Assembly: GCA_029261255.1 (NCBI GenBank)
Contig: JAJDBQ010000195.1
Span: 1 to 64,000 of the forward strand
Origin: Nitrospirales bacterium
Lineage (GTDB): Bacteria; Nitrospirota; Nitrospiria; Nitrospirales; UBA8639
Direction: 5' to 3'
DNA length: 64,000 nucleotides
The notes under the pieces are model-generated. The model was not told the origin of the DNA, did not search any database, and worked only from the letters and a program-made list of their open reading frames with translations. Each line of letters opens with the position of its first letter. Position 1 is the first letter of the stretch. Below are positions 26,141 to 32,900 of this stretch, piece after piece. Both the position numbers and the translations under genes were made by a program.

Positions 26141-27394
26141 ATGGCACGCGCAAAACAATTAACCACGGAAGAGCTGAAACAGCAAGTTCGGGAACGGACT
26201 CGAGAAGTTCAACTTCTCCATCGGATCAGCGAATCCATTAGTGGGACGTTGGAGCAGGCTACTGTGTTGAAGCAAATAGTCGAAGTGGTTGTTGAGGTGA
26301 CAAAAGCCGATGCCTGTTTACTGTATTTGATTTCTGAAAATAAAGACGAACTGATTTTGCGAGCCTCAAAAAACCCACATCCTCGTCTGATTGGTCGGAT
26401 CTCCATAGGATTGGGAGAAGGTATAACCGGATGGGTTGCTCGTGAAAAAGTCCCTGTGGTCGTTCCTCGAAACGCGAGCGATGACGCACGGTTCAAGTTT
26501 TTTCATCGGTTGCCAGAAGATCGCTATCAAGCGTTTGTCTCGGTGCCCATCATGAGTAAAGGTGAAATTATTGGCGTCATTAATGTTCAACATAAGCGAT
26601 CAAAGAGGTATACCGAACAAACCCTCGCGTTATTGCTGACCATTGCGAATCAAGTGGGAGGCGCCATTGCGAATGCCAGGTTATATGATGACATGCGGGG
26701 AAAAGCTCGTCGCCTCGAAACACTGTCACAAGTATCGGAAATGGTGGCATCGGATCGATTGATTGAAGATGTGTTGCAATTGATTGTGACGGTCACTGCG
26801 CAATTAACAAGTTCCAAGATATGTTCGATTATGCTCGTTGACGAAAAATCTGGAGAACTTCGAATTACGGCGACTCAGAGTTTAAGCGATGCGTATCGGC
26901 GAAAGCCGCCATTAAAAGTTGGGCAGAGTATGAGTGGGAGGGCGGTGCAGGAGCAACGGCCAGTGTATGTGCCAGACGTTACGGCAGAAGGTGGGTATTT
27001 TTATCGAGATTTGGCGAAGAAAGAGGGGTTGCATTCGTTGTTATCCGTTCCTATGTTGATAAAGAATAATGTGATTGGGGTCATTAATGTCTATACCTCA
27101 TCGCATCATGTTTTTTCAGATGAGGAAATGAAGACTTTGCAAGCCATTGCCAATCAATCAGCTGTGGCTATTGAACATACTCGCCTGCTGGAAAAATCGT
27201 TTGAAATGCAAGAAGCCATGGAAGTTCGAAAACAGGTTGAGCGTGCCAAAGGCTTTCTCATGGCTTCAAAAGGTTTGTCTGAACCCGAGGCCTTTCGTCT
27301 CATGCAACGACAAAGTATGAATTTGAGGAAATCGATGCGTGAAATTGCTGATGCCATCATTTTGGCGGAAGAACTTCAGCAAGCAACTCAATAA
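26141..27394 (+). CDS. GAF-GAF-ANTAR transcription antitermination regulator
   Basis: The 417-residue protein starts with a short coiled coil (ELKQQVRERTREVQLLHRIS), then has two GAF sensor domains at about residues 30-180 and 200-345, each with the GEGITGWVA or GQSMSGRAV loop and the VPIMSKGEIIGVINV strand. The C-terminus (about 366-410) is an ANTAR RNA-binding domain: VERAKGFLMASKGLSEPEAF, then QRQSMNLRKSMREIADAI. ANTAR proteins bind paired hairpins with six-base loops and prevent terminator formation. Such hairpins lie immediately downstream, before nadE. The GAF ligand is unknown. It has no receiver domain, so control is probably by a small molecule or by a partner kinase. Confidence 0.9.
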   Translation: MARAKQLTTEELKQQVRERTREVQLLHRISESISGTLEQATVLKQIVEVVVEVTKADACLLYLISENKDELILRASKNPHPRLIGRISIGLGEGITGWVAREKVPVVVPRNASDDARFKFFHRLPEDRYQAFVSVPIMSKGEIIGVINVQHKRSKRYTEQTLALLLTIANQVGGAIANARLYDDMRGKARRLETLSQVSEMVASDRLIEDVLQLIVTVTAQLTSSKICSIMLVDEKSGELRITATQSLSDAYRRKPPLKVGQSMSGRAVQEQRPVYVPDVTAEGGYFYRDLAKKEGLHSLLSVPMLIKNNVIGVINVYTSSHHVFSDEEMKTLQAIANQSAVAIEHTRLLEKSFEMQEAMEVRKQVERAKGFLMASKGLSEPEAFRLMQRQSMNLRKSMREIADAIILAEELQQATQ

Positions 27395-27447
27395 CGTAAG
27401 CCATTCTGGATGCCGTATATGTGGAGGTTAGCGCGGCAGGGGGTAGT

Positions 27448-27476
27448 TTGAAGAGACGATCTGCCACGAGTATAAT
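27448..27476 (+). promoter_or_regulatory. Sigma-70-type promoter for the nadE leader
   Basis: TTGAAG at 27448-27453 and a perfect TATAAT at 27471-27476 are separated by 17 bases. Transcription would start near 27482-27484, just before the first leader hairpin, leaving a leader of about 90 bases. Confidence 0.7.
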
Positions 27477-27488
27477 CACTCAAATGGC

Positions 27489-27541
27489 CGACAATGATGT
27501 CGTCAGCTCACATAGATATTTGAGTAGGACAATGGCGTCCT
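27489..27541 (+). promoter_or_regulatory. ANTAR-type dual hexaloop antiterminator element
   Basis: Hairpin 1 is CGAC (27489-27492), loop AATGAT, GTCG (27499-27502). Hairpin 2 is AGGAC (27526-27530), loop AATGGC, GTCCT (27537-27541). Both loops have six bases with A at position 1 and G at position 4, the pattern known for EutV/NasR-type ANTAR targets. The 3' arm of hairpin 2 is also the 5' arm of the terminator, so forming one excludes the other. The linker is 23 bases. Confidence 0.75.
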
Positions 27542-27572
27542 CAGTTCCTTTCGGGACAGAGGACGTTTTTTT
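27536..27572 (+). terminator. Conditional terminator in the nadE leader
   Basis: Bases 27536-27548 pair with 27553-27565 around a TTTC loop; the 13-position stem has one A-A mismatch (27543/27558) and one T-G pair. Seven T residues (27566-27572) follow and run directly into the ATG at 27573. The GAGGA of the ribosome-binding site (27559-27563) is in the 3' arm, so the hairpin should also block translation. Confidence 0.85.
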
Positions 27573-29375
27573 ATGATGCGACTACGATTAGCCATGGTAC
27601 AGATGAATGCGGTCGTTGGTGATCTTGACGGGAATACTCGCGCGATTTGTCGAAGTATTCGAGAAGCCAAGAAAGCCAAAGCCGATGTCGTGGTATTCCC
27701 GGAGTTAGCTGTGTCGGGATATCCTCCTGAAGATCTTCTCCTCATGCCTCAATTTCTTCGTGATATTCAATGTATGGAAAAGCAGATTGCTAAGGCATCG
27801 ATTGGTTTGATGTCAGTGGTCGGCAGCGTTGGTCGTCATCAGAAATTTCCATTGAACGGCGCTCCTGTCCTTAAATCGAGTGACCCTTCAGATCGGCAAA
27901 AGCCGGTGAATGTGGCCTGGGTGTTCGCGCAAGGCCGATTAGTCGGGAGCTATGCCAAACACAAGTTACCCAATTATGGGGTGTTTGATGAGCAGCGGTA
28001 TTTTCAGGAAGGATCGGGCAATCCGATCGTGTGTTTAGGATCATTTCGAATTGGTATCAATATTTGTGAGGACATTTGGTTCGCCGATGGACCTGCCAAT
28101 ACGCAAGTGAAACATGGGAAAGCCCAGCTGATATTAAATCTCAATGCCTCTCCGTATCATGTTGGGAAAACACGCACTCGACAACGCATGTTGGCCACAC
28201 GAGCGAAAGAACATGGGGTGTTCGTGAGCTATACCAATATGGTTGGAGGGCAGGATGAATTAGTCTTTGATGGCAATAGTCTGATCTTCAACCCTCGAGG
28301 AGAACTCATTGCACGCGCAAAGGCGTTTGAGGAAGACCTCTTGCTCACCGATTTGCCTCTACCCAGCATGCCCAATAGGCAAGTTGATAAAATCTCAACG
28401 GTAACCCCCCTTCAAAAGAGACGAGGGATCTCTTTTATTCGCATTCCGTGGAGATCGATGCACTCAGAAATTGCATCCCCTCCAGTGGCAAGATCTTCAC
28501 CCCTCATGACTGAAACAGAGGCCATGTATCGGGCCTTGGTTTTAGGCGTCAGAGATTATACGAGGAAAAATGGGTTCTCTAAAGTTGTGGTGGGGATCAG
28601 TGGTGGAATTGATTCAGCCCTGACGGCTTTGATCGCTCGAGATGCGCTCGGTGCCTCCAGTGTTGTGGGTGTCATGATGCCATCTCCCTATACTTCTTCC
28701 GCCAGCAAAAAAGATTCAAACGCCTTAGCGAAGAACTTGGGCATTGAGCTCATGAATCTTTCCATTACCGCTCTTTTCAAAAGCTACCTCAAAGAATTGC
28801 GACCATTGTTTAAAGGGTGTCCTGTGGATGTCACCGAGGAGAATTTGCAAGCGAGGATTCGTGGGACACTTCTCATGGCCCTATCGAATAAATTTGGTTA
28901 TCTCGTCCTCACAACTGGGAATAAGAGCGAAATGAGTGTGGGATATGCCACGTTGTATGGAGATATGGCCGGTGGGTTTGCCGTGATCAAAGATATCCCC
29001 AAAATGCGTGTGTATCAGTTAGCTCGATGGAGGAGTGACAATCACCCTAGAGACTTTGACCCCATCCGTATTCCCGAGCGAATTCAGTCACGAGCCCCGT
29101 CGGCTGAACTTAAAGCAGAACAGACAGACCAAGATTCCTTGCCGCCATACTCCCAATTAGATGCAATCTTAGAAGCCTATGTCGAAGAGAACCATTCAAG
29201 AAAGACTATTGTAAAGTCTGGCTATCCGATGCAGGTTGTACACAAGGTGGTCCGGCTTGTTGATCGAAGTGAGTACAAGCGCCGTCAATCACCGATCGGA
29301 ATTAAGATAACAGCGAGGGCATTAGGAAAAGATCGACGAATGCCGATCACGAATCAATATTCTCCCAAGAAGTAA
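27573..29375 (+). CDS. nadE: Glutamine-dependent NAD(+) synthetase
   Basis: The 600-residue enzyme amidates nicotinic acid adenine dinucleotide to NAD using glutamine nitrogen and ATP. The N-terminal nitrilase-type glutaminase (residues 1-280) has FPELAVSGYPPEDLL (Glu), the YAKHKLPNYGVFDEQRYF lysine region and INICEDIWF (Cys). The C-terminal synthetase domain has the ATP loop GISGGIDSALTAL near residue 342. The ATG at 27573 lies at the end of a terminator U-tract, so expression is probably controlled by antitermination through the ANTAR protein encoded just upstream. glnD follows after 44 bases. Confidence 0.95.
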   Translation: MMRLRLAMVQMNAVVGDLDGNTRAICRSIREAKKAKADVVVFPELAVSGYPPEDLLLMPQFLRDIQCMEKQIAKASIGLMSVVGSVGRHQKFPLNGAPVLKSSDPSDRQKPVNVAWVFAQGRLVGSYAKHKLPNYGVFDEQRYFQEGSGNPIVCLGSFRIGINICEDIWFADGPANTQVKHGKAQLILNLNASPYHVGKTRTRQRMLATRAKEHGVFVSYTNMVGGQDELVFDGNSLIFNPRGELIARAKAFEEDLLLTDLPLPSMPNRQVDKISTVTPLQKRRGISFIRIPWRSMHSEIASPPVARSSPLMTETEAMYRALVLGVRDYTRKNGFSKVVVGISGGIDSALTALIARDALGASSVVGVMMPSPYTSSASKKDSNALAKNLGIELMNLSITALFKSYLKELRPLFKGCPVDVTEENLQARIRGTLLMALSNKFGYLVLTTGNKSEMSVGYATLYGDMAGGFAVIKDIPKMRVYQLARWRSDNHPRDFDPIRIPERIQSRAPSAELKAEQTDQDSLPPYSQLDAILEAYVEENHSRKTIVKSGYPMQVVHKVVRLVDRSEYKRRQSPIGIKITARALGKDRRMPITNQYSPKK

Positions 29376-29419: not shown

Positions 29420-32122
29420 ATGAGCGCAGGTAATCACATTTCCTCTACACAATCTTCTGCCGTTGCTTCTCTGGGATTGCAGGAGCAACGGGAGGCGATG
29501 CATCAACGATTAAGGGAAGGGGCCACTGGGGGGGAAGTCGTCCAGGTCTTCTCTGATTTCATGGATGGTCTGTTGATTACTCGGTTTCGCGAAGTTATCC
29601 AAGAGGGGAATGCTGAGATACGAACGAGTTCTCAGCAATGTTGCTTAGTGGCGATGGGAGGATATGGTCGACGAGAATTAGCACCCTATTCAGATATCGA
29701 CGTGATGGTGCTTACCCAAGGCACTCAAGCGAAGATCGCCGATATCATTTCCAAGGGTGTCTTTCATCATTTGTGGGATTTGGGCTTTCAAGTGGGACAT
29801 AGTGTTCGATCCATTGAGGAGTGTCTTGAGATTGGAGAATCGGACCTTCCCGCCTGTACCTCTCTCATGGAGTCCAGATTTCTTGGAGGTAATGCTGCCG
29901 TTTTCCAAGAATTCATGAAAAAGTTTGAGAGGAAAATTCTCAAACGACAGGCCAAACAATTTGTGCTGGATAAGATTGAAGAACGGCAGCGGGAATATGC
30001 AAAATTCGGTGGAACAATATTTTTACTCGAACCAAATATTAAGAAAAGTAAGGGCGGCTTACGTGATGTGCATTTGATTCAATGGGTCGGTCACGTGCGT
30101 TTTGGGGCAGGAACTATTCAAGAGCTTGCCAATCGAGGCATCCTGGATTTTCAGGACTATCAAGTGCTTCAAGACGCGCAAGAATTTCTGTTGCGGCTCC
30201 GTGGTTTTCTGCATTTTGAGGCAAAAAGAGCCCAGGATATTCTCACCTTTGATGATCAAGTTCGTCTCGCAGAAATAGATGGTTTATCAGATCGTCCCAA
30301 TCTGTTGGCTGTTGAACAATTTATGCAGCAGTATTTTCTGCATACCACGGGATTGCACGATCGGTGTATTCGGTTTCTTGCTCACGCGGAGGAACAATCT
30401 TGGGCTGAGCGAATGCGGCGATGGTGGCCCAATGCGCTGTTGGAAGGCAATTTTCGAATAGAAGATCATCAACTCACAATTCCCTCAGAAAAATTCCATG
30501 GCATCCTAGAAAGCCCTGTTTTACTGCTGAAATTGTTTGATATTTCTCATGACCAGGCTGTGCCCGTAGATTCTAAAGTGTTGAATGAGCTATCACAATA
30601 TTTAGCCACGACCCCGAATGAACAATTTCATACCCAAGAAGTGAGTGAGCTTTTTCTCGGGATTCTCAATCGTCCAGGGCGAATTGCACAAACGTTAGAA
30701 GCCATGCATCAAGCCAGTCTGCTGGAAAAATTGGTGCCGGCCTTTGCTCGAGTGCGAGGGCTCATGCAGTTCAATCAGTATCATAAGTACACGGTGGATC
30801 AGCATAGCCTGTTAGCGGTGCACGAGGCAGAACGATTGCAAGAGGATCAAGGAATTGTTGGTGAGGTGTATCGACAGATTCAAGACAAGGACATTCTGCA
30901 TTTAGCGGTCTTATTGCACGATTTAGGAAAGGGGCGGCCTGGGGATCATAGTAAAATTGGACAGGAAATTGCGCATAAAATGGCGGATCGACTGGATTTA
31001 TCTCTGGAAGACCGAGAGGTGCTGGCCTACCTCGTGTTCCATCATTTAGTCATGTCGCATACTGCCTTTCGTCGAGATTTAAGCGATCCCAAAATTATTC
31101 TGGCCTTTGCCGAGAAAATGAAAACGGTGGACGTTCTCCAGAAAATGTTTATTCTGACTGTCGCGGATATTTCAGCAGTCGGGCCAGATGTGATGACCAA
31201 ATGGAAAGAATCATTATTAGGAGAACTCTATGCCCGAACTTACGAAGCAATGGTTGAGGGAGGGAAGGCGCCCAAGACTGAAAAAGTAGAAGTTGTCCTC
31301 CAGCCTGAGACTCGTAGAGCCCTGCTCGAATGTCTCACGACCCAGGGAAGCGAAATCCCGGAGATTGACTGGGCTTCGTGGGTTGACGGACAACTCTCTC
31401 AACTTCCCGATTCGTACATTGTTTCCACGCCCGTCGAGCAAATGGCTGCGCATCTCCTTGCTATCAGAAATCTACGTTCTCGGCCAACGTATGTTGAGGG
31501 GCGTTTCAATGGGGAATTGAGTATTTCGCAATATGTGCTCATCACTCGCGAGAAAGCTAGGCCCGGCCTCATCATGCAAGTGACTGGAGTCTTTGCCGCA
31601 TTAGGGCTTGACGTTTTGAATGCCCAGATTATGACCTTGAGTGATGGCACAGTGCTAGATGTGTTTTCTGTTAATGATGCTGACTGTGCTGAGCAGCCGT
31701 CGGGGTATCGATTACAAGAAGTCGCTCAAGAAATTCAGGCCGTTGTGCAAGAAGAGTCTTCGGTTGATCAAGTATTGGAACGACATCGCCGGATGAATTT
31801 TGGGCGACAGTTTCCCACTGGACGGCGCCCCACAGAAGTTTTCATTGATAATGAGGCCTCTGATTCCTATACCATCATTGATGTTTTTGCAGATGACAAA
31901 CCTGGGCTCTTATATGTGTTAGCGAAAACCTTGGTGGAGCTCGACCTCTCCATTCATATAGCCAGGATCGGTACTCGCTTAGATCAAGTCGTCGATGTGT
32001 TTTACGTAACAAATGCGCAGGGTGATAAAATTTCCTCTGAAGAAGTTCGGAAGGTAATTCAAGATGTTCTTCGTGCCTCTGTCGACAAATTCTTAGATGA
32101 AGAAGAATTGGCTTCTTCCTAA
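29420..32122 (+). CDS. glnD: [Protein-PII] uridylyltransferase / uridylyl-removing enzyme
   Basis: The 900-residue protein has the nucleotidyltransferase motif GGYGRRELAPYSDIDVM near residue 79, the GlnD linker domain, an HD hydrolase domain with LLHDLGKGRPGDHSK near residue 497, and two ACT domains near residues 706 and 817. It adds UMP to PII when nitrogen is scarce and removes it when glutamine is abundant. Being downstream of nadE, it may share the antitermination switch; the 44-base gap shows no terminator. Structural PII and glutamine synthetase genes are not in the window. Confidence 0.95.
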   Translation: MSAGNHISSTQSSAVASLGLQEQREAMHQRLREGATGGEVVQVFSDFMDGLLITRFREVIQEGNAEIRTSSQQCCLVAMGGYGRRELAPYSDIDVMVLTQGTQAKIADIISKGVFHHLWDLGFQVGHSVRSIEECLEIGESDLPACTSLMESRFLGGNAAVFQEFMKKFERKILKRQAKQFVLDKIEERQREYAKFGGTIFLLEPNIKKSKGGLRDVHLIQWVGHVRFGAGTIQELANRGILDFQDYQVLQDAQEFLLRLRGFLHFEAKRAQDILTFDDQVRLAEIDGLSDRPNLLAVEQFMQQYFLHTTGLHDRCIRFLAHAEEQSWAERMRRWWPNALLEGNFRIEDHQLTIPSEKFHGILESPVLLLKLFDISHDQAVPVDSKVLNELSQYLATTPNEQFHTQEVSELFLGILNRPGRIAQTLEAMHQASLLEKLVPAFARVRGLMQFNQYHKYTVDQHSLLAVHEAERLQEDQGIVGEVYRQIQDKDILHLAVLLHDLGKGRPGDHSKIGQEIAHKMADRLDLSLEDREVLAYLVFHHLVMSHTAFRRDLSDPKIILAFAEKMKTVDVLQKMFILTVADISAVGPDVMTKWKESLLGELYARTYEAMVEGGKAPKTEKVEVVLQPETRRALLECLTTQGSEIPEIDWASWVDGQLSQLPDSYIVSTPVEQMAAHLLAIRNLRSRPTYVEGRFNGELSISQYVLITREKARPGLIMQVTGVFAALGLDVLNAQIMTLSDGTVLDVFSVNDADCAEQPSGYRLQEVAQEIQAVVQEESSVDQVLERHRRMNFGRQFPTGRRPTEVFIDNEASDSYTIIDVFADDKPGLLYVLAKTLVELDLSIHIARIGTRLDQVVDVFYVTNAQGDKISSEEVRKVIQDVLRASVDKFLDEEELASS

Positions 32123-32213: not shown

Positions 32214-32900
32214 ATGTCTATGAAACTTGAGTCAGTTGTTCCGTTTGGGCGATCTTTTGATGAATATCAACTGATGTTCAATCTTGCCGGAGATGATTTA
32301 TCAAAAAACATTCTTGGAGTTGGGGATGGCCCTGCGAGCTTTAATGCAGAAATGCTGAAGCGAGGTCATCCTGTGACGTCACTGGATCCTCTATATGAGC
32401 TGTCGGGAAAAGAGATTGAACGGCAGTTTTATCGAGTTGTTGATGACGTCATTCAGCAAGTTAAGGCCACTTCCGAAAGTTGGGTGTGGGCGTACCACAA
32501 GTCACCTGACGATCTTCGGGAAAATCGAGAAAAAGCCCTAAGGACATTTGTGAAGGATTACGATTCAGGGAAACAGCAGGGCAGGTACAGAATTGGCGAG
32601 CTACCTAAGCTAGATGGAATAAAGGATGAATCATATGATTTGGCGATTTGTTCTCATTTTCTATTTCTCTACTCGGATCATTTTGATTGTGCATTTCATC
32701 AATCTGCAATTCATGAGATGCTGCGTGTTGCTTCCGAGATTAGGGTGTTTCCACTGTTGACGTTGAACGGGGAATATTCTCCGTATGTTGAACCGGTTAT
32801 CCAGGCGCTTCGAGCGAATGGGTTTGCCGCCGGTATTAAAAAAGTTGCCTATGAGTTGCAACGAGGTGGAAATGAGATGCTGTTGGCTAGGCACCCTTGA
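32214..32900 (+). CDS. SAM-dependent methyltransferase-like protein
   Basis: The 228-residue protein has a class I Rossmann glycine-rich loop (NILGVGDGPASFNAEM), an acidic strand end (VTSLDPLYEL) and a motif-4-like stretch YDLAICSHFLFLYSDHF. This suggests S-adenosylmethionine binding, but the substrate is unknown. It lies 91 bases after glnD on the same strand. The start may be ATG 32214 or 32220. Confidence 0.6.
   Translation: MSMKLESVVPFGRSFDEYQLMFNLAGDDLSKNILGVGDGPASFNAEMLKRGHPVTSLDPLYELSGKEIERQFYRVVDDVIQQVKATSESWVWAYHKSPDDLRENREKALRTFVKDYDSGKQQGRYRIGELPKLDGIKDESYDLAICSHFLFLYSDHFDCAFHQSAIHEMLRVASEIRVFPLLTLNGEYSPYVEPVIQALRANGFAAGIKKVAYELQRGGNEMLLARHP

Follow-up and report, generated by a model that had tools for sequence, protein, structure and literature searches.

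The closest described relatives of the locus considered here are the EutV, NasR and AmiR antitermination systems. In these systems, a leader RNA carries two hairpins with six-base loops that have A at position 1 and G at position 4 (A1 and G4). An intrinsic terminator shares sequence with the second hairpin, and an ANTAR protein regulates nitrogen-related genes (PMC3369931, PMC8934654, PMC7496416). A leader with the same layout precedes the genes nadE and glnD in a 64,000-nucleotide stretch of DNA from a Nitrospirales bacterium (GenBank assembly GCA_029261255.1, contig JAJDBQ010000195.1, positions 1 to 64,000 of the forward strand), called the window below. The locus differs from the described systems in its regulator, a single protein with a GAF-GAF sensor and neither a receiver nor a NIT domain, and in its target, nadE-glnD. 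Unlike those systems, it also has relatives whose second hairpin carries a loop of seven bases or a loop with G at position 1.

The dual-hairpin rule and the nitrogen regulons of ANTAR proteins were set out by Ramesh et al. 2012 (PMC3369931), according to whom no GAF-type ANTAR protein had been characterised by then. As in the order Nitrospirales, a single organism can have many ANTAR leaders, for instance in Desulfotomaculum or Pelobacter. Across organisms, such leaders precede genes for PII, for ammonium, urea and nitrite transporters, and for glutamine metabolism (PMC3369931). The main text of that paper contains none of the words “Nitrospira”, “NAD” or “glnD”. Control of NadE by PII likewise ties the glutamine-dependent synthesis of nicotinamide adenine dinucleotide (NAD) to nitrogen state, and PII-nadE gene islands are reported from several groups, Nitrospirae included (PMC7196632). 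That control is a protein contact at the level of the enzyme, however, and the main text describing it does not contain the word “ANTAR”. A literature search found neither nadE-glnD as an ANTAR target nor a GAF-GAF ANTAR regulator, and no paper on ANTAR control in Nitrospirales.

The leader is probably a cis-acting, ANTAR-responsive attenuator, through which the adjacent protein antiterminates nadE-glnD and, in trans, other nitrogen leaders. The probability of this reading is put at roughly 0.87. It draws on the anatomy of the leader, the joint inheritance and joint absence of element and ANTAR gene, the conserved contact residues and the shared targets, all of which are read from sequence. 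The features concerned, in window positions, are the following.

26141..27394, + strand: GAF-GAF-ANTAR protein, predicted one-component RNA-binding antiterminator; 417 amino acids, Pfam ANTAR E=4.7e-20
27448..27476, + strand: sigma-70-type promoter TTGAAG-17-TATAAT, read directly (TTGAAG 27448-27453, 17-base spacer, TATAAT 27471-27476)
27489..27502, + strand: hairpin P1, CGAC/AATGAT/GTCG, hexaloop with A1 and G4, read directly; covariation in chosen leaders
27526..27541, + strand: hairpin P2, AGGAC/AATGGC/GTCCT, hexaloop with A1 and G4, putative antiterminator arm, read directly; stem almost invariant
27536..27572, + strand: intrinsic terminator, stem 27536-27565 and seven T 27566-27572; it takes the P2 3' arm as its 5' arm
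27573..29375, + strand: nadE, glutamine-dependent NAD synthase, predicted target gene; Pfam, NF010588 above cut-off
29420..32122, + strand: glnD, PII uridylyltransferase, predicted target gene; Pfam, TIGR01693 above cut-off

The preliminary description of this DNA had claimed a promoter, two A1/G4 hexaloop hairpins and an overlapping terminator whose seven T lead up to the nadE ATG, and direct reading finds each of them in place. The ATG, at 27573, follows the seven-T run directly. Both window loops have the A1 and G4 of the dual-hairpin switch, and P2 overlaps the terminator as that switch requires; the P1 stem has 4 bp. The leader folds better than shuffled sequence (z = -3.79; 0 of 200 shuffles as good). 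The computed folding energy is -19.1 kcal/mol for the terminator versus -6.1 kcal/mol for P2 alone, and transcription would therefore be expected to end there by default. A search of the window against Rfam gives no family at its gathering score, and with a lax threshold the top score is PyrR (17.7 bits versus 54 required). The window fold also shows a longer stem closing P1, which was dropped as not conserved: 39.6% of its cells are paired across the alignment, and two of six slid versions pair more. The sole ribosome-site-like sequence seen 5' of nadE is a GAGG within the terminator's 3' arm (27559-27565), and the terminator may therefore also hide the translation start.

The gene just upstream was also as predicted, since Pfam finds two GAF domains and a C-terminal ANTAR domain in its product. 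It gives the single PF03861 (ANTAR) match in its own genome, whose assembly is 88% complete. The NAD synthase has an amidase (CN_hydrolase) domain and is therefore glutamine-dependent.

The RNA-contact residues of EutV (PMC8934654) align in the window protein with R363, K364, R368, K370, E381, F385, Q389, M393, N394, R396 and S398. Most contacts are thus retained: seven of the eleven are identical, two are conservative replacements (K147R, Y164F) and two are changed (R168Q, R177S). Among 55 sequences of the order, the window's included, ten of the eleven positions are invariant in all 55, and the eleventh is N, D or T.

The ANTAR gene and the element are inherited together. Among 196 genomes of the order, 138 have the gene and 139 have an RNA match (E <= 0.01). 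Such a match is present in 135 of the 138 genomes with the gene versus 4 of the 58 without it (Fisher p = 1.4e-39, with related species treated as independent). The gene occurs alone in G045, G054 and G105, and the RNA alone in G095, G145, G159 and G174, while 54 genomes have neither; assembly completeness is 89% for G159 and 87% for G174. The order-wide RNA search used stricter filters and 20 scored candidates a genome, and 7 of the 196 genomes were searched again more deeply. With these settings, further weak elements in genomes that lack the gene are possible. At the nadE locus, this deeper search detected the element weakly in G045 (E=0.0018) and in G054 (E=0.09).

Joint absence can be followed at the locus itself. 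nadE was found in 15 of 16 searched genomes without the ANTAR gene. In eleven of them, all from genus g12 (L213-L223), aroB is directly followed by nadE, with neither ANTAR gene nor leader between; one of the eleven, G145, retains an element elsewhere. This arrangement is read as loss, because other members of g12 keep the ANTAR gene. Three genomes of family f4 have nadE with other neighbours and no leader. In G095, a remnant of the ANTAR gene covering residues 11-60 only lies between aroB and nadE (L228:3817-3954), which probably marks a recent loss.

Conservation of the leader before nadE was counted from gene junctions in 59 genomes of the order, 50 of which carry the ANTAR gene, with one ANTAR match each. 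The preliminary description had made its proposal depend on the leader being kept in relatives with the gene. It mostly is, with four exceptions: 45 of the 50 have it before nadE, made up of 35 of 36 in the window's family (f1), 8 of 8 in f2 and 2 of 6 in f3 (G053, G055). G040 was not scorable, with nadE outside the stretches taken. nadE has the leader even in G032, G034 and G053, where it is separated from the ANTAR gene. The promoter, TTGAA(C/G) with TATAAT 15-18 bases on, is present in 17 of 20 leaders of the genus.

The hairpins of these leaders vary to different degrees. P1 is recognisable as a hexaloop with A or G at position 1 and G4 in 25 of 35 f1 leaders (24 by script, one by eye; L024, L032 and L036 were judged by eye from other stretches). 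Its covariation score in 24 aligned leaders is matched by 0 of 500 shuffles. These 24 were picked from 41 for a visible P1 (alignment A1), so the test is flattering. In them, four of seven paired positions change on both sides, and one of the seven pairs is unpaired in 13 of the 24. The P2 stem is almost invariant, with too little variation for a covariation test, and the terminator stem is 97.6% paired across the aligned leaders with little covariation.

A wider set of 108 elements (A3) shows the same loop signature. P2 is found by pattern in 105, with six-base loops in 85. All 85 of these have G4, 68 have A1 and 16 have G at position 1; 15 of those 16 end in A. P1 is found in 75 of the 108, with A1 in 63 and G4 in 71. 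A less selected test than the 24-leader covariation looked for an A1/G4 hexaloop hairpin of at least 5 bp located 5' of P2. It covered 100 of the 108 elements, eight being omitted for want of a P2 pattern or of 30 bases 5' of P2, and the elements had nonetheless been found with a model that includes P1. Such a hairpin is present in 41 of 63 elements not before nadE (shuffled mean 1.2, maximum 5) and in 11 of 37 nadE leaders (shuffled mean 0.6, maximum 3). The distance from loop to loop is likewise limited. Among elements with a P1 of at least 4 bp, it falls within 35-48 bases for 12 of 15 nadE leaders and for 54 of the 56 remaining elements. In EutV, a 20-base extension between the hairpins abolishes activity (PMC8934654).

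Two further forms of the element were seen. Some elements before nirC or a sigma-54 activator (L083, L109, L124 and similar) have seven-base P2 loops, AATGAAC, AATGGGC and AATTGGC, which the published rule of six bases does not cover. In the f2 stretch that separates the ANTAR gene from nadE (L043-L050), two serial terminator-like hairpins can be made out by eye, each overlapping a hexaloop-like hairpin, and may form a two-step attenuator. In several of these a third hairpin of the TAGCAC-N6-GTGCTA type precedes, and many of the loops have G at position 1.

A search model built from the nadE leaders finds the element before other nitrogen genes. The surroundings of 73 found elements were fetched, with targets named by Pfam and NCBIfam on representatives and the remainder assigned to those by tblastn; left aside were six weak matches (E 0.106-0.756), and G040:C204 was examined separately. 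The largest group, 28 elements, precedes a BBP2-kind porin, with amt next in 26, and the stretch ends in the other two. In 14 genomes, 17 elements precede nirC, followed in 17 of 17 by nirA, with cynS present in some. Nine stand before a sigma-54 activator, with nirC then within the stretch in five. Six, as tandem pairs in three genomes, precede the binding protein of an ATP-binding cassette (ABC) transporter that occurs with cynS. This protein has matches only to broad families or below cut-off. At L085, L094, L099, L112, L113 and L116, two ANTAR leaders stand one after the other in front of a single transporter operon. Three of the 73 precede an unnamed protein followed by urtA, and a further such element is found in G040. 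An identification by eye of the gene before urtA as a porin was dropped, Pfam being blank in four of four such proteins. Three others of the 73 precede nadE, and two lie at contig ends.

The window's own genome has a second target, an element before bbp2-amt-PII-amt (G000:C208:11618-11720). Two further matches, G000:C161 (E=0.64) and one with E=9.6, were not counted. The only match to NirA in this genome, at 88% assembly completeness, is 35% identical, and no nirC-nirA target is claimed there. Three f3 genomes (L207-L209) have the arrangement aroB-ANTAR-leader-nadE-amt, continued by PII in L207, and thus nadE can head a nitrogen operon. The preliminary description had tied nadE-glnD to nitrogen state. 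That link is strongly supported by the presence of the same element in front of genes for ammonium, nitrite and urea. The scope it was given was too small, since nadE-glnD is probably one target of a nitrogen regulon run by a single ANTAR protein. All 50 carriers have one ANTAR match each, which leaves no second ANTAR protein as a candidate for the leaders in trans; two genomes of the larger set, G149 and G170, carry two matches.

The attenuator would work as follows. By default, transcription from the promoter at 27448-27476 would stop at the terminator before nadE. The GAF-GAF-ANTAR protein, expected to be active under nitrogen shortage and probably a dimer, would bind the leader, each ANTAR domain holding one hexaloop hairpin (P1 or P2). 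With P2 held, its 3' arm would be unavailable to the terminator, and RNA polymerase would continue into nadE-glnD. The same protein would act in trans on the like leaders of bbp2-amt-PII-amt, nirC-nirA, urtA and the ABC transporter-cynS operon. As a result, glutamine-based NAD synthesis and PII uridylylation would rise and fall with nitrogen assimilation.

Several observations weigh against this reading. R168 to Q and R177 to S are non-conservative differences at EutV contact positions. P2 loops have seven bases in 20 of 105 cases, and 16 of the 85 six-base loops have G at position 1. Of the 35 nadE leaders in the window's own family, 10 show no recognisable P1 and a further 13 have one of only 3 bp. 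The nadE leader is degenerate in G035 and absent in G037, G057 and G058, where nadE begins 7-108 bases after the ANTAR gene, and therefore nadE is not always a target. G105 has the ANTAR gene and no element even in the deeper search, whereas G095 and G145 keep one element each without an intact ANTAR gene. Finally, 5 of the 73 elements precede genes that could not be named (two in tandem in G058:C8, one each in G055:C15, G028:C1 and before a small open reading frame in G037); the G037 frame is itself followed by bbp2-amt. The elements in G058:C8 (L089) and G055:C15 (L100) are good ones before proteins without a Pfam match, and these may be further regulon targets.

Other explanations account for some of the same evidence. 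If the structure were a plain, unregulated terminator ending the aroB-ANTAR transcript, with the hexaloops there by chance, its position directly after the ANTAR gene would be natural, and the conservation of the P2 3' arm would need nothing else. Such a terminator would mostly not need the P2 5' arm and loop, yet these are nearly invariant. The element is also found in front of other nitrogen operons and occurs together with the ANTAR gene, all of which makes this explanation highly improbable. The G095 and G145 elements would fit an RNA-binding factor other than the adjacent protein, whose own binding to the leaders is predicted. One ANTAR gene per genome in the 50 carriers, the hexaloop signature, the co-occurrence and the conserved contact residues leave a factor of this kind very little likelihood.

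Somewhat less improbable, though still unlikely, is an effect mainly on translation: the ANTAR protein would still bind the hairpins, and either the forming P2 would free the GAGG or the bound protein would hide it. Two candidate ATGs of the window follow the GAGG by 10 and 13 bases, the GAGG is kept in the family, and actinobacterial ANTAR RNAs often overlap ribosome sites (PMC8164766). However, the spacing from GAGG to ATG is long, the amt operon of the same genome has a separate ribosome-site-like sequence well 3' of the T run, and the strong, conserved T run itself points to transcription. Antitermination by the adjacent protein is thus preferred.

The signal may be suggested by the first GAF domain. 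Its best matches among solved structures are the GAF domains of phosphoenolpyruvate (PEP)-protein phosphotransferases, 3ci6 (E=5e-24) and 3trc, which we take to be EI-Ntr (PtsP); 3e0y, of unnamed function, ranks between them, and nlh1 comes next. In NCBIfam, the PEP-protein phosphotransferase kind and NifA are best, far below cut-off. In EI-Ntr, the domain controls a phosphotransfer enzyme and not an RNA-binding domain. Glutamine binding has been reported for the EI-Ntr GAF domain (PMC4848567). Glutamine is a good first guess, no more, as ligand of the first GAF domain here, and a related metabolite may serve as well. It is a bolder and rather doubtful extension that nitrogen regulation in much of Nitrospirales depends chiefly on this protein. 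It would join glutamine-type sensing by an EI-Ntr-like GAF domain to an all-RNA release of terminators over nitrogen and NAD genes, and would have been discarded with its leaders in some lineages.

The order Nitrospirales includes nitrite oxidisers. ANTAR nitrogen regulons are already known; what appears new, judged from the literature search, is the nadE-glnD target and the GAF-GAF sensor arrangement. A regulon of one protein and many leaders is directly testable and offers a GAF-type ANTAR sensor for study, and genomes without both gene and leaders provide a natural control. Such a regulon would add transcriptional control of NAD synthesis, as part of the nitrogen programme, to the known contact between PII and NadE.

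After glnD, the window has an open reading frame of 228 amino acids (32214-32900) without a Pfam match.

The pairing of the ANTAR gene with nadE seems particular to this order. In family f16 of the same phylum, aroB-ANTAR occurs without nadE in the six genomes read, out of 15, and two genomes of the same class likewise have no nadE at the ANTAR locus. Homologues at 41-54% identity are found in Acidobacteria, Omnitrophota and others (L160-L188), and in these 29 loci outside the order nadE was not seen within 3 kb. Three of the 29 adjoin nitrogen genes: amt-PII-glnA (L160), nirA (L162) and amt (L166). Weak elements lie beside the ANTAR gene in some Omnitrophota and Acidobacteria, at L186:2728-2857 (E 0.0003), L161:1918-2024 (0.007) and L162:3005-3103 (0.085). 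Those of L186 and L161 sit upstream of the ANTAR gene, an arrangement that may reflect self-regulation.

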